Positions 1 to 54,333 of a DNA stretch of 64,000 nucleotides are shown one piece after another. The position numbers were made by a program, and so were the translations under genes. Source of the DNA: an uncultured Bacteroidia bacterium. GTDB taxonomy: Bacteria; Bacteroidota; Bacteroidia; Bacteroidales; UBA932. Where the stretch lies: the NCBI GenBank assembly GCA_902762655.1, contig CACWOZ010000008.1, forward strand, positions 17,920 through 81,919, read 5' to 3'. The stretch's first letter is position 1; each line of letters opens with the position of its first letter. The notes beneath the pieces were generated by a model. It was not told where the DNA came from. It ran no database searches and saw only the letters and a program-made list of their open reading frames with translations.

Positions 1-1587
1 CGGGCCGTAGAGTCTGCAGTAGTAGTAGCGGTCGCGGTCAAGCGAGGCAGTGGTTTTTGATGTGGTAGATGAACTGCCGTACATCTGCGCCATCAACTGA
101 TAGTTGTAGTAGTTGGAATAATAGTTTCCGTAACCGCCGTATCCATAACCGTATCCATATCCGCCGTACCCTCCGTACATCCCGCTCATCATGCTCTGGT
201 AGGCCATGTAGTTATATAGGTCGCTCATTTCGGAGTTGCCGCTGGTTGTCGTGGTCACCACGTCGTTGTGCTGTATCAGCATCCAGATGTCGTAACTTCC
301 GTCGGCGAGTTGGCTGTCCCCGTCCTCAAGCCCGATCAGGCGCTGGAGATGGTAGGTGATATCCGGAGAGTAAGTCATCTGCGAACGATGGATATTGCCC
401 TGGTCCTCATTGCTGTCGGATGCGTCCGTAAGGCCCATATAAGAGAAGGTAGTGTCCGAGGTCTTGATGCGGCAGGTCGGGCTCAGAATCTGAGGCACTT
501 TGTGCATATTCTCAAAGTTCTCGTCCGGAGCAAGGTAGTGCATGGTGATAGAGGCCTTGTTGATGATGGCCTTCTTCGGGTCGTGCCCGTTGGCGCGGAT
601 TATCTGCATTGCCTTGTCCCTGATATCCTTGGCGGGAATTACCGGCTTGACTCCGCCGCCGCCGTCAACATAAATATAGTCGGTGGCATTTCCAGCCATC
701 GCCGAGGAATTCTCCTTGGTGACGTTGGCGCAGTATTGGGGGAAATTTCCGGTGCCGGACTTGGAGAAAAGAGAATCGAGGTCGTAGAAATCCGTTGCAG
801 AGAAATAGAAATACAGGGTGCTGTCTTTCTGCACATCCTTACCGTCTATCTCCCAGGTTGAGTTGAACTTGAGCTCTGCCATGCATCCGCCGATGTAGCC
901 GTAGTCGCTGTCATACTGCAACTGCAGCTGGAAGATATTGAACCTTCCGCCCTTGCCCTTGGGCTCGTTCGTGGTGATGTAGATTCCCGGGAAGCGCTTT
1001 GTGTAGAGATTAAGGTCCTTCGTCTCTTCTTTGGTAATGGTGAGGAACTTCTCTCCGAATTCCTTGGTAAAGTTGAAACTGAGCGAGTCGCCTGGGCCGA
1101 TCACGGGTACCGTGGTGGTGATGAGGCTGCTGCCGTGGGCAGGGTCCGAACTGCAGTAGGTCAGGTAGTTCGTGTCCAGCTGGCTGCTCAGTTCATAAAC
1201 GTATACGCTCTGCAGTATCTCTGCCTGGTCGGGGTCGCATACGGAACTGGAGTCGGCCGATGCCGAAAAGTGGAACTTCTTGAACACCGGATTCTTGCCG
1301 TAGTCGATCTCGTCGACGAACATCGGCACCAGGGTTACGCAACTGCTGCGTGTGCTGAGCCCGAACTCTTCGTCATTGCGTATGGCGCCTATGGTAATAC
1401 GCGTCGAAGAATAGGCCGACAAACTGTCGGACAGCTTCATCTGCACGGGGATTGCCACAGGGTCCGGACTGATCACCTTGTATGTGTGGTTGACAGGAAG
1501 CATGCTCCCGCCAAGTTCATTGTCGACCGATACGCAGCCGATGCAGCACAGGGATGCCGCAGCGGCAAGGAACCATCTTGATTTCAT
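1..1587 (-). CDS. DUF4270 family lipoprotein, 3' end cut by window edge
   Basis: The reading frame is open for 529 codons from the ATG at 1587 to base 1 and continues beyond the window. The N-terminus is a lipoprotein signal with the lipid-attachment Cys at residue 18 (CCIGC), so the protein should be anchored in the envelope. The body resembles the Bacteroidota DUF4270 family, whose function is not established. The part nearest the window edge is rich in Gly, Tyr, Ser and Asn, with a run of GYG repeats followed by Tyr/Asn-rich sequence, an unusual low-complexity tail. The starch-synthase-like gene lies 3 bases upstream on the same strand, so the two are probably cotranscribed. The family call is from memory of the family and its position beside the synthase-like gene. 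Confidence 0.75.
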   Translation of the reverse strand, partial: MKSRWFLAAAASLCCIGCVSVDNELGGSMLPVNHTYKVISPDPVAIPVQMKLSDSLSAYSSTRITIGAIRNDEEFGLSTRSSCVTLVPMFVDEIDYGKNPVFKKFHFSASADSSSVCDPDQAEILQSVYVYELSSQLDTNYLTYCSSDPAHGSSLITTTVPVIGPGDSLSFNFTKEFGEKFLTITKEETKDLNLYTKRFPGIYITTNEPKGKGGRFNIFQLQLQYDSDYGYIGGCMAELKFNSTWEIDGKDVQKDSTLYFYFSATDFYDLDSLFSKSGTGNFPQYCANVTKENSSAMAGNATDYIYVDGGGGVKPVIPAKDIRDKAMQIIRANGHDPKKAIINKASITMHYLAPDENFENMHKVPQILSPTCRIKTSDTTFSYMGLTDASDSNEDQGNIHRSQMTYSPDITYHLQRLIGLEDGDSQLADGSYDIWMLIQHNDVVTTTTSGNSEMSDLYNYMAYQSMMSGMYGGYGGYGYGYGYGGYGNYYSNYYNYQLMAQMYGSSSTTSKTTASLDRDRYYYCRLYGP

Positions 1588-3602: not shown

Positions 3603-4396
3603 GTTGGCTGGAAGCACTGATCCTCGGCCTTGTGCAGGGCCTTACCGAATTTCTGCCGGTCAGCAGCAGCGGACATCTTACCATAGGCCGTGAACTCCTT
3701 GGAGTCGAGGCTTCGGGCGACCTTGTTTTCGAAGTCACCGTGCATGCTGCCACCGTGCTCAGCACGATTGTGGTATTCCGCAAAGAGATATGGAAACTCC
3801 TCCGGGGGCTCTTCAAGTTCAAGATGAACGACGAGACCGACTATGTACTCAAGATTGTCGTGTCGATGATTCCCGTGTTCGTGGTGGGCATGTTCTTCAA
3901 GGACTACGTCGAGAATCTGTTCGCATCGATGATGGTGGTGGGACTCGCACTGATAGTTACCGCAATGCTGCTGTTCTTCTCTGATTTTGCGTCCAAGAAA
4001 GCCCAGGCGGAGAATAAGGCCCGCAACGGCATAAAATATTGGCAGGCATTTGCTGTGGGCATAGGTCAGGCTCTGGCCGTGATCCCCGGCCTTTCCCGCT
4101 CGGGCACGACCATCTCCACAGGTCTCATCTGCGGAGTGAAGCGCGAGGTTATGGCCCAGTTCTCGTTCCTGATGGTGCTCGTGCCCATCCTGGGCGAGGC
4201 CTTCCTCGACCTTGTCGGGGGAGATATGGCGGCCTCTTCGATAGGCCTGCTGCCGCTTGCGGTGGGATTCATGGCCGCATTCATCTCCGGCCTTTTCGCT
4301 TGCAAGGTGATGATAGCGCTCGTGCGCAAGGCCCGCCTCAGCTGGTTCGCGCTCTACTGCGCAATCGTGGGCATACTCGTACTTATCTTCGCGTAG
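3599..4396 (+). CDS. uppP: Undecaprenyl-diphosphatase UppP (BacA)
   Basis: The 265-residue polytopic membrane enzyme dephosphorylates undecaprenyl diphosphate so that the lipid carrier can be reused for peptidoglycan and polysaccharide export. Both family signatures are present: the glutamate-rich motif GLVQGLTEFLPVSSSGH at residues 10-26 and PGLSRSGTT at residues 163-171. The start is taken at 3599, overlapping the preceding stop by the ATGA arrangement; the frame is open for 139 codons further upstream, but that stretch lies inside ftsX and the DUF3098 gene and shows no UppP similarity. The next gene, lpxH, begins directly after the stop. Confidence 0.95.
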   Translation: MSWLEALILGLVQGLTEFLPVSSSGHLTIGRELLGVEASGDLVFEVTVHAATVLSTIVVFRKEIWKLLRGLFKFKMNDETDYVLKIVVSMIPVFVVGMFFKDYVENLFASMMVVGLALIVTAMLLFFSDFASKKAQAENKARNGIKYWQAFAVGIGQALAVIPGLSRSGTTISTGLICGVKREVMAQFSFLMVLVPILGEAFLDLVGGDMAASSIGLLPLAVGFMAAFISGLFACKVMIALVRKARLSWFALYCAIVGILVLIFA

Positions 4397-26747: not shown

Positions 26748-26771
26748 CAATCCACTACTTCAACCGTACAT

Positions 26772-26856
26772 GCCCGGATGGCGGAATTGGTAGACGCGCT
26801 GGACTCAAAATCCAGTGTCCCTTAAAGACGTGCGGGTTCGATTCCCGCTCTGGGCA
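26772..26856 (+). tRNA. tRNA-Leu (anticodon CAA)
   Basis: The 85-base gene folds as a class II tRNA with a long variable arm. The acceptor arms GCCCGGA and TCTGGGC pair, discriminator base A follows, and the anticodon stem CTGGA/TCCAG closes the loop CTCAAAA with anticodon CAA. The T-arm contains GGTTCGATTCC. CCA is not encoded. Confidence 0.95.
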
Positions 26857-26860
26857 CGTA

Positions 26861-26886
26861 AAAGGCAGCTTCGGCTGCCTTTTTTC
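26861..26886 (+). terminator. Intrinsic terminator after tRNA-Leu
   Basis: AAAGGCAGC (26861-26869) pairs perfectly with GCTGCCTTT (26874-26882) around TTCG and a T-run follows. It begins 5 bases after the tRNA. Confidence 0.9.
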
Positions 26887-26914
26887 TGACCTTGTCCTTC
26901 CGTCTGCGGCGTCC

Positions 26915-26994
26915 GTATGCAAAATGGCCGTTTCTGCATACAAACCCGTCGTTTTTATAGGAGTTGTATGCAAAAGGACAGGATTTGCATACAA
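26915..26994. repeat. Intergenic double-hairpin repeat, copy 1
   Basis: The element holds two hairpins with the same core: GTATGCA (26915-26921) with TGCATAC (26935-26941), and TTGTATGCAAA (26964-26974) with TTTGCATACAA (26984-26994). A second copy with the same order, spacing and total length lies at 42208-42286. The remaining bases to 27104, within the 247 bases between tRNA-Leu and the sensor kinase gene, hold no recognised gene. Confidence 0.8.
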
Positions 26995-27104
26995 AGAACC
27001 ATTTGCTCCGATGAAATGCTTCATCTCGGGTAGCGATAACCGAAATAAACATACAAGGTGGAATTTTAGGAGGGAGACCTTGTACGGTGGGATAGTGCCA
27101 GGGT

Positions 27105-39339: not shown

Positions 39340-39477
39340 ATGAAAGTGAAACAACATTACGAAAGCCCGCAGGCAGTCGGGTTCTCCTTCAAAAGCGAAG
39401 GGGTGATTTGCACCAGCGATCTGCTTGAAACAGCGGATCCGCTGCAGGAAATGGAAGTTGAAACATTTGAATGGTAG
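39340..39477 (+). CDS. Short YxxP peptide, first copy
   Basis: This 45-codon frame encodes MKVKQHYESPQAVGFSFKSE, then GVICTSDLL and an acidic end (EMEVETFEW). Like the 47-residue peptide at 40939 it has a basic N-terminus with Lys and Gln, a YxSP motif at residues 7-10 and a Cys near residue 24, and directly precedes a fimbrillin-like lipoprotein gene (11 bases). Such peptides recur in Bacteroidota genomes. The YxxP motif resembles the part of lasso-peptide leaders that is bound by PqqD-like proteins; that similarity is suggestive only. Confidence 0.6.
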   Translation: MKVKQHYESPQAVGFSFKSEGVICTSDLLETADPLQEMEVETFEW

Positions 39478-39488
39478 GAGGATCTGTC

Positions 39489-40916
39489 ATGAAAAAAGCA
39501 TTGATTATTATGGCCTTCGGGGCACTTGCATTGGCCTGCTCCAAAATAGAATCCGCACCTGCAGAAGATATTGTTCCGCTGCCGGATGGATATATAACCA
39601 TTACTGCCACGGCGGATGGCTCCGGCGACACAAAAGTCCAACTCACAACCGGTTCCGCTGCGAACAAGATGCAGCTGATCTGGTCTGCGACCGACAGGAT
39701 AGGAGTTTATGCTCCCGATTCAAACGTGCCGTTCAGCCTTTCTTCCGGTAGCATGAGCGCAACCGCGCAGTTCACGGGAGATGCCGCTGGCATCTACTCC
39801 GCCTGCAGTGAAGGATGGACGGCCCTGTATCCACACCAGGAACGCCCGGATGCATTCGTGGCTTACGGGGATGGCAAGGATTATTACTATTGCAAACTGA
39901 ATGCATACCAGGCAGCAACCGAAGGATCTTTCGACAGGAACTGTTTCCTTATGCTTGCACACAGCGCAACGCTGGGGGACTTTTCTTTCAAGCCCCTCGT
40001 GGCCCTGCTTAAGGTGACGCCCCAGTTCGACTGCAAGCAGATTTATCTGACTGCAAGGCAGCCCGGTGGTACGTATGTGAGGATAAGCGGGCAGGCGGAT
40101 TTTGAGTGGAATGGCGGAGCCCCGACAATGGAGGCGCCCCCCGTCTGCAATCTTGCCTCGAATTCCACCTCTATAATCCTGACCGGCAACATCGAGGCCG
40201 GCAAAGACTACTACATCTGCGTTTATCCTATGGAGATGCCGGAAGGCTTCGACCTCAGTTTCGTTGCGACGGACGGGAAGGTGTATGTGCGTGGAAGCGG
40301 CAACTCCTTCATTCCGGTACGTGGGAAGATATACGATATGGGAGAGTTCTCCGTCGCAGGTACCTCCTGGGCGGAGGTCAAGGCTGCGCCGGATGCAAAC
40401 GGCCATACTTATGTCGACCTAGGGCTCGTGGTAGACGGAAAGAAGCTTTATTTCGCCGACCGGAATCTCGGGGCATCTGCAATAGATGTGTTGGGAGATA
40501 CCTATTACTGGGGTAACGTGAACCCTTCTCCTTCCTCTGATTACTACAGGCCCGGGGCGAATATGAACATCGGCGGAAACATCAACTACGACGCCGCAAC
40601 GAAGAACTGGGGCGGTGACTGGAGAATCCCGGGAGTCAGCCATCTGGACATTCTATGGGGGGATGTGCCTTCCAGGCCGTTCCTCTCCATTGCCTGGGAT
40701 ACATCCAGGGCAACTAACGGCAACACCGTCACATCATCCATCCCCGGATATGAAGGCACCACCATCTTCATCCCCGATGGCCAGTATTGGACTTCCGAAT
40801 ACTATAAGTCCAGCGGCAGGTACTATTGTCTGTCCGCTCACGAAACCATCAGTAGCTGGAGCGTTTATTACCCGAATGCTGCCTATCAACCCATCCGCCC
40901 GGTAATCTTCAAGTAA
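39489..40916 (+). CDS. Fimbrillin-like lipoprotein with C-terminal FISUMP-type domain
   Basis: This 475-residue surface lipoprotein has the lipid-attachment Cys at residue 17 (ALALACSKIES), a fimbrillin-like beta-rich region (about 30-295; ITATADGSGDTKVQL and LIWSATDRIGVYAPD are typical) and a C-terminal domain (about 305-475; YVDLGLVVDGKKLYFADRNL, WRIPGVSHLDIL, YWTSEYYKSSGRYYCL) like the Fibrobacter major paralogous domain. The same domain ends the protein at 52273. The start at 39489 sits 8 bases after GGAGG. Probably exposed at the cell surface, with an adhesive or structural role. Confidence 0.8.
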   Translation: MKKALIIMAFGALALACSKIESAPAEDIVPLPDGYITITATADGSGDTKVQLTTGSAANKMQLIWSATDRIGVYAPDSNVPFSLSSGSMSATAQFTGDAAGIYSACSEGWTALYPHQERPDAFVAYGDGKDYYYCKLNAYQAATEGSFDRNCFLMLAHSATLGDFSFKPLVALLKVTPQFDCKQIYLTARQPGGTYVRISGQADFEWNGGAPTMEAPPVCNLASNSTSIILTGNIEAGKDYYICVYPMEMPEGFDLSFVATDGKVYVRGSGNSFIPVRGKIYDMGEFSVAGTSWAEVKAAPDANGHTYVDLGLVVDGKKLYFADRNLGASAIDVLGDTYYWGNVNPSPSSDYYRPGANMNIGGNINYDAATKNWGGDWRIPGVSHLDILWGDVPSRPFLSIAWDTSRATNGNTVTSSIPGYEGTTIFIPDGQYWTSEYYKSSGRYYCLSAHETISSWSVYYPNAAYQPIRPVIFK

Positions 40917-40938: not shown

Positions 40939-41082
40939 ATGAGCAAAAAACAATTTTATTCTTCACCCGAAATCGAGGTGATTAGTATTGGACCGGCAGG
41001 GAGGCTCTGTGATTTGTTAGTGGGATCATCTTTTGATTCAATAACCGCCCCCGGATTTGAAAACGGTGGGGATTTAGTCTAA
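40939..41082 (+). CDS. Short YxxP peptide, second copy
   Basis: A 47-codon frame starts MSKKQFYSSPEIEVISIGPA, then GRLCDLLVG and a Gly/Asn/Asp-rich end. Its first half is strikingly like the leader of the lasso peptide paeninodin as I remember it (a KKQYxxPxLEVL pattern), in which Tyr and Pro are bound by a PqqD-like recognition protein. It lies 22 bases after one lipoprotein gene and 17 bases before the next. No cyclase or other modifying enzyme is adjacent. Confidence 0.6.
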   Translation: MSKKQFYSSPEIEVISIGPAGRLCDLLVGSSFDSITAPGFENGGDLV

Positions 41083-41099
41083 AAAAGGAGGAAATGATT

Positions 41100-42146
41100 A
41101 TGAAAAAGACAGTTATTATAGTGTCTGCGCTGGTATGCCTTGCAGCCTGCAGTAAAACGGAAATAGCAACCCCCGACAACAATTCAATCAATCCAGAGAC
41201 TCGAGAAGTAACTCTTACCGTGAGTCTGGAAGGGAGCGGTGAAGACTCCAAGACAAGCTATGCCGTTGATGGTTCCGCATTGAAGTGCACCTGGAGTGCC
41301 GGAGATCAGCTGACTCTAGTCACCTACGATGCCACTGCAAGTTCCAGTACCCTTATGACCATCGACAATCTTACCCTCTCCAGCGGGAAAGGCAAAACTA
41401 GCGGAACATTTACTGGTACTATAACCGGGACGCCTGGAGCATATTATCGTATATTATATCCTGCCGTTACCCAAACGGAATCAGCGCCCTATAAGTCTGT
41501 AGCAAACGGCAGCGGAAGCATTGTTTCCATCTCACAAGGATCCACGTACTGGGAAGTAACCCTGTCTCTTTTTAACAGAGTAATGCAAAGTGGAGGCAAC
41601 GGTAATATGAATCATTTACGCAACTGCACCTTGATGGGTTTCGGAACCATAACGGGCGGCGTGCTGTCTCCGGTTTCATTGTCTAACCGCTTCTCTATTC
41701 TGAAAATCACCGCCACTTTGCCAGAGACATGGAAGGGAAAGAGATTATATGCAGTAAAAGTTGGGACTAATCTCGACAATTGTTTTAGTTCATCTCCAAC
41801 TTATGGTTCCAGGAGCTCTGATTCAATGGTAATAGTATCTGGAGGAGGGCAAGAAAAACAAGGACCTGCAATTGGGCTTGGAACATTCTGGGATGGTGAT
41901 TACACGCCGGCACGATATGGCGGAATCGATGTAGATAAGGATCTTGAGGACAGGAAGATAACCATCTATTATCCTTACTTGCCTTACATTTCCAACGATT
42001 TCAATAGTGGTTCCACGCTTTTCTTGTACGGTTACGATTCTTCGGATTCTTATATGCTGGGCGGTAGCGGTATCGAAATTGCACGCAAGACTCTGACAAC
42101 GACTGTTGATAATAATTGGGGTAAGGTTTATACCTTGAATTTCTAA
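41100..42146 (+). CDS. Fimbrillin-like lipoprotein
   Basis: The 348-residue protein has a lipoprotein signal with Cys at residue 17 (VCLAACSKTE) and a beta-rich sequence of fimbrillin type (VTLTVSLEGSGEDSKTSY, LKCTWSAGDQLTLV near residues 35-80), with a Gly/Ser/Thr-rich centre. It lacks the FISUMP-type C-terminal domain of its neighbour. GGAGG at 41087-41091 favours the ATG at 41100 over the one two codons earlier. It probably forms a surface structure with the product of 39489. Confidence 0.72.
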   Translation: MKKTVIIVSALVCLAACSKTEIATPDNNSINPETREVTLTVSLEGSGEDSKTSYAVDGSALKCTWSAGDQLTLVTYDATASSSTLMTIDNLTLSSGKGKTSGTFTGTITGTPGAYYRILYPAVTQTESAPYKSVANGSGSIVSISQGSTYWEVTLSLFNRVMQSGGNGNMNHLRNCTLMGFGTITGGVLSPVSLSNRFSILKITATLPETWKGKRLYAVKVGTNLDNCFSSSPTYGSRSSDSMVIVSGGGQEKQGPAIGLGTFWDGDYTPARYGGIDVDKDLEDRKITIYYPYLPYISNDFNSGSTLFLYGYDSSDSYMLGGSGIEIARKTLTTTVDNNWGKVYTLNF

Positions 42147-42207
42147 TAACGGATTCCTGCGTTTTCCCGCCTGCTCCTTAACGTGATGTCGTGATTCTTC
42201 CCGGCCC

Positions 42208-42286
42208 GTATGCAAAAACGCCTTTCCTGCATACAAACAGCTTGAAAACCGACCACTTGTATGCAAAACAGGCTTTTTTGCATACA
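42208..42286. repeat. Intergenic double-hairpin repeat, copy 2
   Basis: GTATGCA (42208-42214) pairs with TGCATAC (42228-42234), and TGTATGCAAAA (42258-42268) with TTTTGCATACA (42276-42286). Order, spacing and length (79 bases) match the copy at 26915-26994. It occupies the first part of the 306-base gap before the aroD-aroA gene. Confidence 0.8.
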
Positions 42287-42330
42287 CACTTGCCGAATTC
42301 ACGTATTGAAGCCTCCTCCCATCCCCATGT

Positions 42331-45361: not shown

Positions 45362-46702
45362 ATGCAAGACCGGCGCGAACAAATAATCGATATCATCCAC
45401 CGCGAGGTAAAACCTGCGCTGGGCTGCACCGAACCCATTGCCGTTGCACTCGCAGTCGCCAAGGCCGTAGAAATCATCACCGACAACTGCCCATGCATCT
45501 GTCCCGAAGGCTGGCGCCTGAAGGTGGACTTCCGCATCGAAGTGGCAGTCAGCGGCAATATCCTCAAGAATGGAATGGGCGTCGGAATCCCCGGCACAGG
45601 CATGGTAGGACTTCCGGTCGCAGCTGCACTCGGAGCCGTCTGCGGAGAGTCCGCCAGGGGGTTGGAGGTGCTGGCGGCGCTTAACGACTGCAGCGTGAAA
45701 AGGGCCAAGGAGCTGGTTGCAGGAGGCAAGGTACACATCAGCGTTGCGGATACCGACCGTCTACTGTACGTGAAGGCCACTGTTTCGGTGGACGGACGGG
45801 CGGAAGCCAGTGCAGAGGTTGATCCTCATGCATATGCGGTAATCGAGGACGATCACGACCGCATTGTGGAAACAAGTTTCGCCGGCAAGATACTGATGAG
45901 TTCCGAGTCCGGCGCCGCGGCCGTCGAACGCACAGCCAATAATGACGGCCTGACTGTCCGGGAAATCTACGATTTTGCCAGCACTGCCCCTTTCGAGAGT
46001 ATTTCCTTTATCCTTGAAGACCGCAGTCTCAATCTCGCTCTTGCCAAAGAGGGCCTGAAGGGAGATTACGGCATGAAAGTAGGCAAGGCCATACGCGAGA
46101 ACCAGAAAGAGGTCTTCGGTGATGATTTCATGAGTTTCGCCATGGGGATGACCGCCGCGGCATCTGACGCACGCATGGCCGGATGCACCCTGCCTGCCAT
46201 GTCCAACAGCGGCAGCGGCAATCAGGGAATTACCGTCAGCATGCCGGTCATCGCCTATGCGATGAAGTACGGAGTCGATGACGAGCGTCTGGCCCGCGCA
46301 CTGATCCTGAGCAATCTGGTCGCCATACATATCAAGAGTTACCTCGGCAAGTTGTCCGCCCTTTGTGGTTGCGTCGTGGCTTCCACCGGTTCCGCCTGCG
46401 GAATAGTGTGGCTGCAAGGCGGAAGTTACGAACAGGTGTGCTATGCCATCAAGAACATGGCAGGAAACATAACAGGAATGGTTTGTGATGGCGCCAAAGT
46501 GGGCTGTGCCATGAAGGTGGCTTCCGGAGTGTCCTCCGCCGTCCAGTCCGCCGTACTTGCGATGCGTGGTACATGCATCCCTTCAACCGACGGCATTATC
46601 GATGACGACATAGAAAAAACCATCAGCAACCTCGGCGCGATAGGCTCCGCCGGCATGAAGGCGGCAGACCGCATGATATTAGACATCATGCTTTGTAAAT
46701 AA
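45362..46702 (+). CDS. UPF0597/L-cysteine desulfidase-like protein (CyuA family)
   Basis: The 446-residue protein matches the family of E. coli CyuA (YhaM), an iron-sulfur enzyme that breaks L-cysteine into pyruvate, ammonia and sulfide, related to the alpha subunit of L-serine dehydratase. The GCTEP motif near residues 21-25 and later Cys residues (AGCTLPAMSNSGSGNQG near 280, CGCVVAST, GAKVGCAMK) fit an Fe-S cluster. The product is expected in the cytoplasm. Substrate could also be serine or another amino acid. A 26-base gap separates it from the HprK-like cassette, so cotranscription is possible. Confidence 0.85.
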   Translation: MQDRREQIIDIIHREVKPALGCTEPIAVALAVAKAVEIITDNCPCICPEGWRLKVDFRIEVAVSGNILKNGMGVGIPGTGMVGLPVAAALGAVCGESARGLEVLAALNDCSVKRAKELVAGGKVHISVADTDRLLYVKATVSVDGRAEASAEVDPHAYAVIEDDHDRIVETSFAGKILMSSESGAAAVERTANNDGLTVREIYDFASTAPFESISFILEDRSLNLALAKEGLKGDYGMKVGKAIRENQKEVFGDDFMSFAMGMTAAASDARMAGCTLPAMSNSGSGNQGITVSMPVIAYAMKYGVDDERLARALILSNLVAIHIKSYLGKLSALCGCVVASTGSACGIVWLQGGSYEQVCYAIKNMAGNITGMVCDGAKVGCAMKVASGVSSAVQSAVLAMRGTCIPSTDGIIDDDIEKTISNLGAIGSAGMKAADRMILDIMLCK

Positions 46703-46728: not shown

Positions 46729-47607
46729 ATGAGTGAGAAAAGATTCTATCGCGTAGCAGGATTCGTTTTTGGAGTAGGGAGCCCGGAGGAGGACTTTCTC
46801 GACTCTATGACGAATCTCGCTCCGTTCAAGGAAGACGGCGCATCCGGGGAACATATATTCAACCTGGAAATCGTGGATTCTATCCCGGAAAACAGTCCGG
46901 AGTTGATGTTCCGTACCGATGATGGTCCGGGTTTTCCGGAAATCAGCATTTTTAACGTGGATGGGGGCTGGCAGATTCGTGTGAAACCTCTTCCGCAACT
47001 CCCGGAGGCTTCGGAAATGTGGGTCAAGGAGGATTTTTCCGAGGCAACTCTCCACTTCCTCCGCAAAGAAGACAGACAGTTTGCCCTGAACAATGCCCTG
47101 ATGCTTATGTTCGCATTCTCCACCGCCTGCCGCGGTGCGTTGGAAATGCATTCTTCCGTGGTGATGAACGACGGGAAGGGATATCTTTTCCTTGGCCGCA
47201 GCGGCACGGGAAAGAGTACCCACAGCCGTCTCTGGATAGATAATATCCCGGGAACGGTGCTGCTCAACGACGACAATCCCATACTCCGTCTCATGCCGGA
47301 CGGTAGCGCCCGTGTCTTCGGCTCACCATGGAGCGGGAAAACGCCCTGCTATAAGGCCGAAGACGTGCCCGCCGGAGCCGTGGTGCAGTTGAAGCAGGCC
47401 CCATATAACAAGATAGAGCGCATGCATGCGTTGCAGGCATATGCTACCCTGATGTCTTCCGCTTCATCTTTCCGCCCCTTCAAGGGCCTTGCGGACGGAT
47501 GGCACCGCACTCTCGAAGGGCTGGTCGGCGTGTTGCCATGCTATATGCTCGAATGTCTGCCGGACGCCGCTGCCGCGGAACTTTGCCATAGCACGATTCA
47601 TGGATAA
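46729..47607 (+). CDS. HPr kinase-like protein, first gene of a PqqD/ABC cassette
   Basis: The 292-residue protein has a Walker A motif GRSGTGKST at residues 156-164 preceded by LEMHSSVVM, the arrangement of HprK/PEPCK-type kinases, and LNDDNPILR and GSPWSGKTPCY further on. The N-terminal 140 residues are variable. Homologues of this kind in lasso-peptide clusters phosphorylate the precursor peptide; others are often mislabelled as PEP carboxykinase. The target here is unknown. Its stop lies inside the next gene (8-base overlap), the first of three overlaps in this four-gene unit. Confidence 0.8.
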   Translation: MSEKRFYRVAGFVFGVGSPEEDFLDSMTNLAPFKEDGASGEHIFNLEIVDSIPENSPELMFRTDDGPGFPEISIFNVDGGWQIRVKPLPQLPEASEMWVKEDFSEATLHFLRKEDRQFALNNALMLMFAFSTACRGALEMHSSVVMNDGKGYLFLGRSGTGKSTHSRLWIDNIPGTVLLNDDNPILRLMPDGSARVFGSPWSGKTPCYKAEDVPAGAVVQLKQAPYNKIERMHALQAYATLMSSASSFRPFKGLADGWHRTLEGLVGVLPCYMLECLPDAAAAELCHSTIHG

Positions 47608-48025
47608 ACGGACGGTTGCGAACGAGTTGCTGCTGGAAGATGCGGCCATGCTTATGGATGAGGGGCGCGAGGTGACCTTCACCCCCCTCGGCAGCAGCAT
47701 GCTGCCCTTCATCAAGGGGGGCAAAGACAGTGTCCGGCTGAAGAAAATGCCGGAGGTGGAGGTTGGCGACATTCTGCTTGTCCGCCTCCCGGGTCCGCGC
47801 TATGTGCTGCACCGGCTGATTCGGAAGGATGGCTCCGATCTGACCCTGATGGGTGACGGCAATATCGCAGGGGTGGAAACCTGCAAGGCAGGTGACGTGC
47901 TAGGCACGGTAACTGCCATAATAAAGGATAAACGCACGGTGGTGCCGGGGAAAGGCCGCATTTGGCGGGCCCTGAAACCGTTTAGACGTTATATACTTGG
48001 TATTTACAGAAGAATAGCATTATGA
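47600..48025 (+). CDS. S24/S26-type (signal peptidase-like) serine peptidase
   Basis: The 141-residue protein has the nucleophile motif GSSMLPF (Ser33 most likely) of S26 signal peptidases and YVLHRLI (His71), so it is of the Ser/His type seen in SipW and Sec11 rather than the Ser/Lys type of bacterial LepB. The GDGN box follows near residue 90. No N-terminal membrane anchor is visible; the basic C-terminus (FRRYILGIYRRIAL) could be amphipathic. In this context it may cut a leader from an exported peptide. It overlaps the gene before by 8 bases and the PqqD-like gene by 4. Confidence 0.8.
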   Translation: MDKRTVANELLLEDAAMLMDEGREVTFTPLGSSMLPFIKGGKDSVRLKKMPEVEVGDILLVRLPGPRYVLHRLIRKDGSDLTLMGDGNIAGVETCKAGDVLGTVTAIIKDKRTVVPGKGRIWRALKPFRRYILGIYRRIAL

Positions 48026-48288
48026 AGATCAAAGAAGGATTCACACTCCGCCAGATTTGCGGCGAGTATGTAGTGGTTGGCGAAGGCCTGGCACAGGTCA
48101 ATTTCAATAAACTTCTCTCCCTGAACGAGACAGCCGCCTTCCTTTGGCAGAAGGCGGAAGGCATGGAGTTTACCAAAGAAGACCTGGTTGCCCTGCTGCT
48201 CGATAATTATGAGGTAGAAGAGGCGCGCGCTTCCGAAGATGTTGACAAACTGCTCGAAATCTGGCAGAAAGAAGGCGTAGTAGAATAA
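48022..48288 (+). CDS. PqqD-like peptide recognition protein (RRE)
   Basis: The 88-residue protein fits the PqqD fold of an N-terminal beta hairpin and a helical end; LNETAAFLWQKAEG near residues 35-48 is the family hallmark. PqqD-type domains bind leader peptides of ribosomally made, modified peptides and present them to modifying enzymes. It overlaps both neighbours (ATGA upstream, TAATG downstream), so it is tied to the kinase, peptidase and transporter. Confidence 0.87.
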   Translation: MKIKEGFTLRQICGEYVVVGEGLAQVNFNKLLSLNETAAFLWQKAEGMEFTKEDLVALLLDNYEVEEARASEDVDKLLEIWQKEGVVE

Positions 48289-49916
48289 TGGAAAGGTCGT
48301 TCCGCGCTTGTGCGAAGGCACTATGGAGGATGTCCGTCCCGGTAAGGTGGCGGATGCTGGTCAGCGTGCTTTCAGGTGCGGTGCGGATAGCCGTTTCGCT
48401 GGCCTTCGTATGGACGAGCAAGCATCTGGTGGACATTGCCACCAAAGTGTCGGATGCACCGCTGAGTTCCGGAATATGGATGTTCGCCGTTGTGCTTGCC
48501 CTGCAACTTTGTGTGGTCCTGTTCGTCAACTGGTGGGATGCCTACAGCGAGGTAAAATCCCGCAACCGCCTGCGCATGGACACCTTCGCAAAGGTTATGA
48601 GCAGCCGTTGGGACGGACGCGAGCGTTTCCTCTCCGGAGATACGGTCAACCGTCTGGAGGAGGATGTACGCGTGGTAGCCGATCTGCTGATCGTCCGTAT
48701 TCCCGGGGTGGTGGTTACATTGCTGCAACTGCTGGCAGCCTCGGCCTACCTTATGGTGCTTGCCCCCAATCTGCTCTGGGTGTTGCTTATACTTATGTTC
48801 TCCGCCGTATTCGGATCCAAAATGTTCTTCCGGCAGATACGTTCTCTGATGACCCGTATCCGTGCTCGTGAGAGCGAACTGCAGCAGCATATGCAGGAGA
48901 GTCTCCAGCACCGTGTGCTGGTGCTGACCCTCACCAATCTGGACCGCGTCCTTGAGAAGTTCGGGTGGCTGCAGGCAGATATTGAGAGCAATACCCGCAA
49001 GCGGCTGAATTATAATGCAGTTGCCCGTGGACTGATGTTCCTGGGATTTCAAGCCGGGCACGCTGCCGCCTTTCTTTGGGGTGCGATAGGAATCATGCAC
49101 GGCACGGTTACATACGGTATGATGACCGCTTTTCTGCAACTCGTCGGGCAGGTGCAGCGGCCAATAGCCGAATTCGGCCGGCAGGTGCCCGCTTTCATCG
49201 TGGCCATCGCATCCGTCGAGCGCATCATGGACCTGGAGGAACTTGAGCAGGAACCGTCTTCCGAAAGCATCGTCCTGCCGGGCGCTCCCGCTGTCGAAAT
49301 CTCGGGCGTGAGTTATTCATATCCCGGATCGTCGGTGAAAGTCCTGGACAATTTCTCTGCCGTTTTTCCGGAAGGTTCCTTCACGGTGGTGGCCGGCTCA
49401 ACCGGGGTGGGGAAAAGTACCCTGATACGTCTTATTCTGGGGCTCCTGACTCCGTCGGAGGGGAGCATACTTGTTGGAGGAAAGGCCGCCGGTGCCGCTC
49501 TGCGCGGGAATTTTATGTATATCCCGCAGGGAAACTCTCTGCTGAGCGGGACCATCCGCAGCAATCTTCAACTGGCCTCTCCGGATGCCACGGAAGATGA
49601 AATGCGTTCTGTCCTGGAGACGGCGATGGCTCAGTTCGTATTCGAGCTTCCTGATGGGCTGGATACCCCCTGCGGAGAGGTCGGAAGCGGTCTGAGCGAG
49701 GGTCAGTGCCAGAGAATAGCGATAGCACGCGGTCTGCTGAGGCCGGGTGGTATAATGATTCTGGATGAATCCACTTCAGCCCTTGATGCCGCGACCGAAG
49801 AAGCCCTGCTGCAAAACCTTTATGTCAAGTACCATCAGCGGAAAACCATCATATTCATCTCACACAGGAAAGCAGCGGCCCGTTTTGCCGATGCTGTTAT
49901 AGAGGTGTCGCAGTAA
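48288..49916 (+). CDS. ABC transporter with fused membrane and ATPase domains
   Basis: The 542-residue half-transporter has an N-terminal membrane domain of six predicted helices (about residues 20-300) and a nucleotide-binding domain with Walker A GSTGVGKST (370-378), Q-loop PQGNSLLSGTIRSNL, signature LSEGQ (469-473; Glu replaces the usual Gly) and Walker B MILDESTSALD. It probably acts as a homodimer exporter. There is no N-terminal C39 peptidase domain, which fits with a separate peptidase in the operon. Substrate unknown; a peptide is likely from context. Confidence 0.88.
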   Translation: MERSFRACAKALWRMSVPVRWRMLVSVLSGAVRIAVSLAFVWTSKHLVDIATKVSDAPLSSGIWMFAVVLALQLCVVLFVNWWDAYSEVKSRNRLRMDTFAKVMSSRWDGRERFLSGDTVNRLEEDVRVVADLLIVRIPGVVVTLLQLLAASAYLMVLAPNLLWVLLILMFSAVFGSKMFFRQIRSLMTRIRARESELQQHMQESLQHRVLVLTLTNLDRVLEKFGWLQADIESNTRKRLNYNAVARGLMFLGFQAGHAAAFLWGAIGIMHGTVTYGMMTAFLQLVGQVQRPIAEFGRQVPAFIVAIASVERIMDLEELEQEPSSESIVLPGAPAVEISGVSYSYPGSSVKVLDNFSAVFPEGSFTVVAGSTGVGKSTLIRLILGLLTPSEGSILVGGKAAGAALRGNFMYIPQGNSLLSGTIRSNLQLASPDATEDEMRSVLETAMAQFVFELPDGLDTPCGEVGSGLSEGQCQRIAIARGLLRPGGIMILDESTSALDAATEEALLQNLYVKYHQRKTIIFISHRKAAARFADAVIEVSQ

Positions 49917-49960: not shown

Positions 49961-50509
49961 ATGAACACATTTAAGAAATCCCTTGCAGTGCTATGTCTGG
50001 CACTCATCCCGGTTTTCGTATTTGCTCAGAAGACTTCGAAGTTCCCTCAGAGGAACGAAATCGTAGAGGTTGAAAACGAAAATGATCCATCAATGATCCT
50101 CGAGGTGTTCGATTGCCCCGTAGACGGAGTAAGCCACTATTTCCTTTCAGTAGGCCACCTTGGATTCGGTGACGAAGTTGTACAGGTGCTGTTCGATCCC
50201 GTCTTCGAACTTTTCTTACCCCTTGGTGACTCGATTTCCGAGGCGCTTGAAACGCTGAAGCAACTGCAGGCTCTCTACAAGAGCGAGCCCGGCGCAAGCA
50301 TGGAGGTCCAGGGCTGCCTCGCCTTCGGTATCCCTAACGACAAATATGAAACCGTAAAGGTGACATTCCGCAAGGTGCTCCTCACCCGTTTCCTGGAGTT
50401 CAGCGTCCAGCGCGAAGGCTATATCCGTGCGGCACATGTTCAGAAGTCTGATTTCGGCTCCCTCGTCACAAGCATGAAACTGCACCATAAAATGTATCCT
50501 AAAAAGTAA
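49961..50509 (+). CDS. Secreted protein of unknown function downstream of the PqqD/ABC cassette
   Basis: The 182-residue protein has a clear signal peptide (cleavage near residue 22, FVFAQKT) and no recognised domain. It contains a DCPVDG motif and several charged strands. It starts 44 bases after the transporter gene on the same strand and could be part of the same unit, but no motif links it to the cassette. The ATG at 49961 is preferred over the one 12 codons earlier because it begins the signal peptide directly. Confidence 0.65.
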   Translation: MNTFKKSLAVLCLALIPVFVFAQKTSKFPQRNEIVEVENENDPSMILEVFDCPVDGVSHYFLSVGHLGFGDEVVQVLFDPVFELFLPLGDSISEALETLKQLQALYKSEPGASMEVQGCLAFGIPNDKYETVKVTFRKVLLTRFLEFSVQREGYIRAAHVQKSDFGSLVTSMKLHHKMYPKK

Positions 50510-52272: not shown

Positions 52273-54333
52273 ATGAAGAAAGTATTATCCGCCATTGCGG
52301 CGTTTGCGCTGCTCGTCTTTCCGGCCTGCACCGAAGAAGAAATCCAGAATGCCCTGAACGGGGGAGAAGGCGGCAAGGAAGTCGCGGCCACCGGCATTAC
52401 AATTGACCCGTACTCAGCCGAAATGACCGTAGGTGAGACTCTGCAACTTGTTGCTACGGTAACCCCGGAAAATTGTACCGACAAGGTGGAGTGGACCTCG
52501 CTCATGGAAGAAAACGCTACCGTAAAAGACGGTCTGGTAACCGCCTTGAAAGAAGGGTACGCTTCTATCGTCGCCCAGGCAGGGGAGTTCCAGGCTACCT
52601 GCCGCATAGCAATCCGCGGTGCGAATAACGGGAGTGTAACGGGCATCACTCTTAACAAGACAGCCCTGCAGATGGTAGTCGGTCAGAGCGAAGTGCTCAT
52701 TGCCACGGTCCTCCCCGAAAACGCCACGGACAAAACAGTCTCCTGGAGTAGTTCCAATTCCCAAGTGGCGGACGTGGTGCTTGGAGAAGGTTATGGTGCG
52801 GACGGCACGGTTGTGGTAGGCGGCAGGGTTACTGCCATCAGCGAGGGTGAGGCCGTTATAGAAGCAAAGGCCGGCGGTGTCACCGCTACGTGCAAGGTCA
52901 CGGTCGGCAAGGGCAGCGGAAACGGCAAGATAGAGGTAACAGAAATCCAGCTCAATAAAACGGAAATTACCGTTGTAACAGGACAGAGCGAGCAACTTGA
53001 AGTCGTGAAACTTCTTCCTGAAAACGCCACGGAAAAAACCGTCGTCTGGGAGAGTGACAATACGGAAATTGCGCTTGTTACACCCCGTGACGCAACGGTG
53101 GACGGAGTCTTTTACAAGGGCGGAAGAGTGACCGGAAAGAATCCCGGCACCACCACAATCCGGGCGCTTGCCGGCGTGGCGAGGGCAGAATGCAAGGTAA
53201 CCGTTACCTCCGGAGGTTCCGTAACCATCGAGAGCCTTTCCATCGATCCGGCATCGGTCAGCCTTACCGTAGATGAAGAAAAGATACTGACGGCCGTCGT
53301 AACCCCTTCAAATGCCAAGGCGGATATAACCTGGCAGATCGACAACCCGAAGATTGCCGCCGTGGGTTCCATTAACGAGAAACAGGCAAAGGTACAGGGC
53401 CTTTCGACAGGCAAGACCACAGTCAAGGCCATTGCGGGCGGGAAGACCGCTACCTGCGAGGTTACGGTTACAGGCGGATCCGGGAATGTGGCGGTTCAGT
53501 CGATAACGCTTAACAAAACCACCCTTAAACTTGAAGTCGGCCAGTCCGCGCAGCTCACCGCCACAGTCCTTCCTGAAAATGCCCACGACAAGAGTGTAAT
53601 CTGGACCACTACGGATCCTCATAATGCATATGTAAATGGCGGGCTGGTTACCGGTTATGGCGTTTGTGAAGCCACGATCACTGCAACAAGCGTGAGCAAT
53701 CCTCAGGTAATGGCGACCTGCAAAGTAAGCATAGTAGCCGCGGGAAGTGGCGGTGGGGCAGAAATCGAAGCTGTGGACCTGGGCCTGCCAAGCGGATTGA
53801 AGTGGGGTTCCATGAACGTTGGAGCTTCGAAACCGGAGGATTATGGTAACCACTACGCCTGGGGAGAAATAAAGACCAAAACAAGCTATACGGGATCCAA
53901 CTATAAGTTTGGGCCGGTTCAATATAGCGAACTCTCAATGTATTCCAAGTACGAGACCAAATTGGGCGGCGATAAGAAGACTGTCCTGGAGGCTGAAGAT
54001 GATGCTGCAAGCGTGAATGTCGGCTCGGGTTGGCGAATGGCCACTTTCGCAGAGTGGAAAGAATTGCGTGAGAAATGCACTTGGACGTGGACGACCCGTA
54101 ACAGAGTCAATGGAATGCTGGTTACAGGCCCGAACGGCAAGAGCATCTTCCTCCCCGCTGCAGGTGTCTTCGAGAGCACCAAGAACAGAGTGGGCTCCTA
54201 CGGAAGTTACTGGACATCTTCCCTCGCGGAAGCAGAGGGAATGGCGCACGCCGTGGACTTCATTTCCAGCGGAAAGGACAAGGCCCTCATAGGTCGTTGT
54301 TATGGACTATCTGTCCGTCCCGTCAAAGATTAA
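52273..54333 (+). CDS. Surface lipoprotein with five Ig-like (Big_2) repeats and a FISUMP-type domain
   Basis: The 686-residue protein has a lipoprotein signal with Cys at residue 19 (VFPACTEEE), followed by acidic residues that favour export to the surface. Five bacterial Ig-like repeats follow (about residues 38-115, 120-215, 222-315, 320-400 and 405-495), each with a pattern like ITLNKTxLxLxVGQS and ending in CKVTV. The C-terminal domain (about 500-686; VDLGLPSGLKWGSMNVGA, YAWGE, WRMATFAEWKEL) is the Fibrobacter major paralogous type. Likely a stalked surface adhesin or binding protein. The stop overlaps the convergent CPBP gene. Confidence 0.85.
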   Translation: MKKVLSAIAAFALLVFPACTEEEIQNALNGGEGGKEVAATGITIDPYSAEMTVGETLQLVATVTPENCTDKVEWTSLMEENATVKDGLVTALKEGYASIVAQAGEFQATCRIAIRGANNGSVTGITLNKTALQMVVGQSEVLIATVLPENATDKTVSWSSSNSQVADVVLGEGYGADGTVVVGGRVTAISEGEAVIEAKAGGVTATCKVTVGKGSGNGKIEVTEIQLNKTEITVVTGQSEQLEVVKLLPENATEKTVVWESDNTEIALVTPRDATVDGVFYKGGRVTGKNPGTTTIRALAGVARAECKVTVTSGGSVTIESLSIDPASVSLTVDEEKILTAVVTPSNAKADITWQIDNPKIAAVGSINEKQAKVQGLSTGKTTVKAIAGGKTATCEVTVTGGSGNVAVQSITLNKTTLKLEVGQSAQLTATVLPENAHDKSVIWTTTDPHNAYVNGGLVTGYGVCEATITATSVSNPQVMATCKVSIVAAGSGGGAEIEAVDLGLPSGLKWGSMNVGASKPEDYGNHYAWGEIKTKTSYTGSNYKFGPVQYSELSMYSKYETKLGGDKKTVLEAEDDAASVNVGSGWRMATFAEWKELREKCTWTWTTRNRVNGMLVTGPNGKSIFLPAAGVFESTKNRVGSYGSYWTSSLAEAEGMAHAVDFISSGKDKALIGRCYGLSVRPVKD

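Follow-up and report, generated by a model that had tools for sequence, protein, structure and literature searches.

A Bacteroidales gene cassette that resembles the linear polyphosphorylated peptide machinery, and its likely substrates, small YxxP peptides

What do four overlapping genes for a kinase, a peptidase, a PqqD-type protein and an ABC transporter do in a member of the Bacteroidales whose relatives include rumen and gut species? The genes lie in a stretch of 64,000 nucleotides, hereafter the window, of contig CACWOZ010000008.1 from an uncultured member of the Bacteroidia (assembly GCA_902762655.1). All four are on the plus strand, and their open reading frames (ORFs) overlap successively by 8, 4 and 1 bases, as a preliminary description made from the sequence alone had reported. 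They encode an HprK-like kinase of 292 residues (46729..47607; LppK-like in the terms used below), a soluble SipW/S26-like Ser/His protein of 141 residues that is a putative leader peptidase (47600..48025; LppS-like), a PqqD-type protein of 88 residues predicted to be a discrete recognition element (RRE) of ribosomally synthesized and post-translationally modified peptides (RiPPs) (48022..48288; LppB-like) and an MsbA/CydC-like ABC exporter of 542 residues (48288..49916; LppD-like). The preliminary description proposed that the four act jointly on a small peptide to give a phosphorylated or simply cleaved product, and it called the system uncharacterised. The joint action on leader-bearing peptides, with a phosphorylated and cleaved product, is supported here by peptides adjacent to the cassette in relatives, by co-occurrence of peptides and cassette and by a counterpart in Bacillota. 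The word uncharacterised has to be dropped, since a system of this kind, that of the linear polyphosphorylated peptide (LPP) RiPPs, was described in 2026 (PMC13381572). We consider it likely that the cassette is a Bacteroidota variant of the LPP machinery that acts on scattered small precursors with a YxxP leader.

LPPs are RiPPs of Bacillota, exemplified by the lppAKBSDN gene set from Paenibacillus alginolyticus (PMC13381572; Popov et al. 2026, Nat Commun). In that system LppB, a discrete RRE, binds the YxxP leader with D70 and N33 helping to fix the Tyr and the Pro; the HprK-like LppK adds several phosphates to core Ser3; the SipW-like LppS cuts after FET, requires LppB and works poorly on the unphosphorylated precursor; LppD is MsbA-like; and LppN, an NTP transferase, was without effect in the host used. 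The Bacteroidales cassette has in common with this system the discrete PqqD-like RRE, the HprK-like kinase, the SipW-like Ser/His peptidase, the MsbA-like exporter and the YxxP leader, and because the parts are the same it most likely works in the same way. The NTP transferase is shared by many Bacteroidales relatives; the window genome is without it, PF14907 finding no match anywhere in that genome.

The kinase carries a P-loop (GRSGTGKST) and an NDD motif, and residues S158, G159, G161, K162, T164, N180, D181 and D182 are invariant in 26 sequences. Its matches to PEPCK_ATP (4.8e-05) and to NCBIfam ScmC (4.9e-06) are weak, both being under the curated cut-off. An AlphaFold2 model (pLDDT 94.6) has among its best fold matches ATP-PEPCK (Foldseek 1.1e-06, with a modest TM of 0.52 by query) and HPr kinase/phosphatase (1knx 2.7e-05, 1jb1 2.9e-05, with TM again modest, up to 0.51 by target). 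On the strength of this model we assign the protein as HprK-like, the class to which LppK belongs. The ABC protein matches ABC_membrane (4.9e-24) and ABC_tran (3.6e-23) in Pfam as well as MsbA_lipidA (2.7e-53) and CydC (3.8e-65), the last two under their curated cut-offs, and is MsbA-like as LppD is. A Pfam scan found no peptidase domain in its 542 residues, in keeping with the preliminary description of an exporter lacking its own C39 peptidase. Taken by themselves, matches to PEPCK/HprK-type P-loop enzymes and to MsbA and CydC would also suit a kinase and an exporter that serve a metabolite or a lipid, with the peptides discussed below as bystanders. That reading is highly improbable: an RRE is encoded in the operon, in some relatives the peptidase and the exporter form one fused protein, the precursor evidence points to peptides, and the kinase counterpart in Bacillota phosphorylates a peptide (PMC13381572).

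For the peptidase, similarity to Pfam S24 is weak (0.0052, under the curated cut-off), with one relative reaching 7e-07, and the PDB profile matches are weak as well (signal peptidase IB 0.018, LexA 0.025, SEC11C 0.16). All 24 homologues keep Ser33 and His71, and D86 and E93 are both invariant as well, which leaves two candidates for the acidic catalytic residue. By these sequence features the protein is a SipW-like (SpI) Ser/His peptidase, the type found in LPP clusters. Because its maximum hydropathy over 19 residues is only 1.01, the window protein appears to have no membrane anchor, as had been suggested; the highest value among the 24 homologues, 1.67, is marginal.

The PqqD protein matches PF05402 over the cut-off (2.1e-15) as a discrete RRE, and N35 and D73 are invariant in 19 sequences. 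Its profile matches the lasso-peptide RRE TfuB1 (6jx3) at 3e-05, N35 and D73 aligning with N46 and D83 of TfuB1; D73 and N35 may correspond to D70 and N33 of LppB. The match to a lasso B1 protein raises the possibility of a degenerate or atypical lasso cluster whose product is or was cyclised. Paeninodin-type phosphorylated lasso systems do share with the cassette a YxxP/WxxP leader, a PqqD-like B1, an HprK-like kinase, an NTP transferase and an ABC exporter; 2/24 of the precursors described below show weak similarity to the paeninodin precursor model, with E up to 0.1 and 0.042 as the best value; and LPPs have been termed linear analogues of phosphorylated lasso peptides (PMC13381572). The B2-type leader peptidase (PF13471), however, is unmatched in the window's own genome and rare in the genus (1/100 genomes over the cut-off, 7/100 at E<=0.001), with the SipW-like peptidase conserved in its place. 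No cyclase (macrolactam synthetase) was noticed in the gene lists read, although no search was aimed at one. We rejected the lasso assignment on the PF13471 result, the single feature tested, and regard such a cluster as extremely improbable.

A second PqqD-domain match in the window genome (1.1e-7; L063 about 3611-3775, G000:C9:7610-7774) lies inside an open frame of 482 residues, possibly a separate peptide-modifying enzyme.

Is the four-gene order kept in relatives, as the preliminary description suggested should be searched for? We fetched 111 relative loci, excluding the window, 31 of them from same-order genomes and 80 from metagenome-assembled genomes, mostly rumen and gut Bacteroidales; a few contigs were present in both source sets. 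The exact order HprK-Pep-PqqD-ABC (Pep, peptidase) is found in 61/111 loci, which makes the arrangement more than chance. The four-gene order is kept to that extent; many relatives add an NTP transferase, and four fuse the peptidase to the exporter. A PF14907-type NTP transferase follows HprK-Pep-PqqD in 10/111 loci and sits between PqqD and ABC in 6/111, one further locus has transferases at two positions, and the other 33/111 are partial, rearranged or cut. A serine-dehydratase-like gene upstream of the cassette in the window (45362-46702) and a gene downstream for a protein of 182 residues (49961-50509) gave no tblastn match in 31 related loci and were set aside.

In the four fusions (L040, L218, L219, L220; 746-805 residues) the peptidase forms the N-terminus of the exporter, and cleavage would therefore be tied to export, as in C39-type exporters. 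Such peptidase-containing ABC transporters carry a C39 cysteine peptidase and act on double-Gly leaders. The fusions share with them the N-terminal peptidase domain; they differ in that this domain is an S24/S26-type serine peptidase and the leader is of the YxxP type. A phylum search with a peptidase-ABC fusion matched ordinary ABC transporters in 247/247 genomes and, being swamped by them, says nothing on how frequent the fusion is.

The kinase is present in 136/150 genomes of the genus (completeness at least 90%) and missing from 14/150, whereas the distribution of LPPs in Bacilli is patchy (PMC13381572). Across the order (294 genomes, completeness at least 85%), 42/294 have a strong kinase match at E<1e-20, a cut-off chosen after the table had been viewed in order to drop PEPCK-like cross-hits; 88/294 match at E<=0.001. 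Of the additional matches, a large number look like PEPCK cross-hits because their frames are roughly 550 residues long. In a phylum sample the peptidase profile matched 10/247 genomes, and seven stretches from six of these were fetched. In one (L317, genome G334) all five parts are present, the NTP transferase among them, yet there is no YxxP profile match; another (L322) has PqqD, HprK and peptidase; and in the other five (L318, L319, L320, L321 and L323, from four genomes) distant relatives of the kinase and/or the peptidase stand beside genes that we take, from their starts, to be radical SAM-like, an arrangement reminiscent of SynChlorMet cassettes. As a separate observation, the cassettes in L317 (109-13999), L269, L031 and L033 lie amid putative polysaccharide genes, presumably glycosyltransferase-like, sugar-nucleotide and polysaccharide-export-like; LPP clusters in Bacillota are likewise found with capsule loci.

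What does the cassette act on? Clustering of short ORFs within 2.5 kb of the cassette returned only PqqD, the peptidase and their overlapping shadow ORFs, and a first scan that demanded two YxxP motifs per ORF was useless. A search for the YxxP motif gave small ORFs whose products carry YxxP in their N-terminal part and have an acidic tail, and the substrate of the cassette is very probably this family of YxxP-leader peptides of about 35-80 residues. Two members, both on the plus strand, are in the window; these are the YxxP peptides that the preliminary description mentions. Candidate precursor 1 (39340..39477) has 45 residues, the motif YESP and a Ser 19 residues past the Tyr (Y+19); candidate precursor 2 (40939..41082) has 47 residues and the motif YSSP, and is atypical in that its first Ser after the hydrophobic pair comes late, at Y+23. 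They score 1.0e-7 and 3.4e-8 against a leader profile, A5, that was built from 23 leaders and to which both themselves belong. Pfam gives no family for the 4 precursors scanned, and NCBIfam none for 24.

In some relatives precursors lie in or beside the cassette, while in the window genome they are dispersed. All nine evaluable HprK-Pep-PqqD-NTP transferase loci have a YxxP peptide 3' of the transferase, on the same strand and within about 220 nt; the tenth such locus (L014) ends inside the transferase at a contig edge and is not evaluable. The peptide is found between PqqD and HprK in three loci of other families (L221, L222, L223), and 39 nt before HprK in L038. An A5 match within about 1 kb of HprK occurs in ten kinase-positive genomes of the order (G054, G083, G124, G160, G172, G188, G196, G215, G257, G289), of which six gave no leader to A5.

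The fetched loci yielded 87 unique precursors, 64 of them outside A5. The window's kind, type A, accounts for 76/87. In type A, Y+16 is hydrophobic in 75/76 and Y+17 in 76/76, and the first Ser within Y+16..25 falls at Y+19 in 40 peptides, Y+20 in 20, Y+18 in 5 and another position in 9, while 2 have none in that range. Of the 56 type A peptides outside A5, 35 have their first Ser at Y+19 and 14 at Y+20. The other 11/87, type B, have I-D-x-x-I-S-[LMI]-[IV]-M followed by a Ser or Thr at Y+20 in 11/11 (8/8 outside A5). The collecting profile spans these columns and may favour such patterns. From Y+18 onward the mean net charge of the 87 precursors is -3.8. The Ser is mostly at Y+19/20 in the Bacteroidales peptides and at Y+18 in LPP.

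Peptides and cassette occur together. In the order, a peptide match (E<=0.05) is found in 32/42 strong-kinase genomes versus 16/252 others; several of these 16 are likely false because their frames are long and open. Leaving out the 8 genomes that supplied leaders, the counts are 24/34 versus 16/252 (Fisher p 8e-17) and, at E<=0.001, 12/34 versus 3/252. In the genus, a match at E<=0.02 is found in 121/136 kinase-positive and 1/14 kinase-negative genomes (p 2.6e-10); both p values overstate independence because the genomes are related. The kinase-negative exception, G032, carries PqqD (1.2e-39) alone, without other cassette genes in the 10 kb read, and the other 13 kinase-negative genomes have no PqqD match. 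The preliminary description had suggested a search for a small gene that always accompanies the cassette and had held that cassettes in genomes without leader-like peptides would speak against its proposal. Such genomes are not the rule, 121 of the 136 having a match and 15 having none; the precursors of the window genome are dispersed and stand before lipoprotein genes.

Several results weigh against a cassette that acts on these peptides as the LPP machinery does on its own. Among the 61 loci that share the gene order of the window, no precursor was found closer than about 1.7 kb, and 3/61 (duplicates collapsed) have one anywhere in the fetched stretch; in the window itself the nearest is 5.6 kb from the cassette. 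No peptide match was obtained in 10/42 order and 15/136 genus kinase-positive genomes, and the order comparison carries the post hoc kinase cut-off, as both comparisons carry the relatedness of the genomes. Conversely, three genomes of the order have convincing YxxP matches (G303 1.7e-8, G301 2.0e-6, G155 8.7e-4) yet lack a strong HprK match and any match to PqqD; in these three the assembly may be incomplete, the machinery may have been lost or a second one may be at work. Finally, the LPP consensus YxxPxVLxHQxIxFETxxS is not kept, only the YxxP, the hydrophobic positions and a later Ser/Thr being common.

Where, then, are the precursors of the window genome? It has at least 12, nine A5 matches and three found by reading neighbourhoods, versus 1-3 per LPP cluster. 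None of the nine A5 matches lies in an open frame longer than 60 residues; one of them, on contig C20, has an E of 6.45 and YxP in place of YxxP. The precursors directly precede 11 large same-strand ORFs (one ORF stands behind two tandem peptides), and 10/11 of these start with a lipobox signal, 1/11 being without it. Over all loci, a lipobox ORF starts -40..+250 nt after 58/87 precursors versus 39/414 control genes, and several precursors overlap the next start. By type, the counts are 56/76 for A and 2/11 for B.

This adjacency would also be expected if the YxxP ORFs were regulatory or translation-coupling leaders of the lipoprotein genes, unconnected with the cassette. Such leaders would leave unexplained the co-occurrence with the cassette, the placement of peptides within it in other families, the RRE-type motif and the lack of peptide matches in the 13 genomes of the genus that have neither kinase nor PqqD, and we think this explanation very unlikely.

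In the window the partners are lipoprotein 1 (39489..40916, plus strand, 475 residues), behind precursor 1, and lipoprotein 2 (41094..42146, plus strand, 350 residues), behind precursor 2. The second has a fimbrillin-like motif after the lipid Cys, and it is by this motif only that it is called fimbrillin-like. The motif, [TSAK][KR]...W..[DE] within 130 residues of the lipid Cys, is found in 43/56 partners of at least 200 residues versus 45/278 other lipobox ORFs, counts to be read knowing that the motif was written after the partners had been viewed and that the controls were chosen with a slightly stricter start pattern. Mfa_like_1, a fimbrillin-like family, matches 4/34 partner lipoproteins, and lipoprotein 1 matched no Pfam family. 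The AlphaFold2 model of lipoprotein 1 has a pLDDT of 63 overall, with 18/23 ten-residue blocks between residues 61 and 290 at 70 or more; its best Foldseek matches are Bacteroides fimbrial/adhesion proteins (3ufi 6.2e-08, 4k4k 8.5e-08, 3sy6 5.5e-07), with modest TM-scores of 0.41-0.54 by target, and point to a fimbrillin-like N-terminal region. Because of the motif count and this middling model, the partners look fimbrillin-like. They are not only of fimbrillin size, since one YxxP peptide precedes a lipoprotein of 2231 residues (L270 5390-12085) in which 15 stretches are leucine-rich repeats of the BspA type (PF13306 1.5e-185).

Precursors and downstream surface proteins that recur as pairs with divergent cores, together with the sporadic loss of the kinase noted above, would fit the same machinery making a bacteriocin, with the adjacent lipoprotein as immunity or receptor protein. 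The immunity proteins known are small, and the 56 partners of at least 200 residues are large (257-2231 residues, several of them truncated where the locus stops) and in many cases have the fimbrillin-like motif; the kinase is moreover present in most members of the genus. We regard a bacteriocin as rather unlikely.

Short repeats containing TATGCAAAA / TTTTGCATA are present 3' of lipoprotein 2 (42190-42300), and an ORF near 26755-27024 suggests similar ones. A protein of 686 residues (52273-54333) matches Fib_succ_major weakly and contains five Big_2 Ig-like stretches; no YxxP ORF ahead of it turned up in the motif scan.

Reading the cassette as LPP-type machinery, we can propose a sequence of steps by analogy with Bacillota. 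The PqqD-type protein would bind small precursors, encoded at scattered loci, by their YxxP leader. The HprK-like kinase would then phosphorylate a conserved Ser (or Thr) that mostly lies 18-20 residues past the Tyr, after which the soluble SipW-like Ser/His peptidase would trim the leader near the phosphorylated residue; the order of these steps is likewise taken from the analogy. The product, an acidic linear phosphopeptide, would be exported to the periplasm by the MsbA-like ABC protein. Gene adjacency suggests a joint role for the mature peptide and the neighbouring fimbrillin-like lipoprotein; the peptide may be a lipoprotein partner, a signal or a bacteriocin with a surface partner. More tentatively, one cassette might tailor a dozen or more peptides in trans, most of them made in one operon with a fimbrillin-like lipoprotein, the phosphopeptide being a cap, ligand or subunit of that lipoprotein and so tuning the adhesin or pilus repertoire of these Bacteroidales.

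How far is this arrangement new? LPPs are called restricted to Bacillota, words beginning with Bacteroid- are absent from the main text of the paper, and its peptidase network is only "predominantly" Bacillota, so that the supplement may list other phyla (PMC13381572). A search of the open-access literature in one library found no report of a Bacteroidota version. What appears new is the Bacteroidota version itself, with its dispersed precursors, their frequent position ahead of fimbrillin-like lipoprotein genes, the peptidase-ABC fusions and, in the window genome, the lack of an NTP transferase.

The cassette is widespread in Bacteroidales, where it comes with likely substrates and, unexpectedly, with a link to fimbrillin-like surface lipoproteins. 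If this reading is true, a function is offered for a class of Bacteroidales small ORFs left unnamed by the libraries searched. The LPP family, described in 2026 as having no known role (PMC13381572), would extend to a second phylum and gain a cell-surface role that can be tested.

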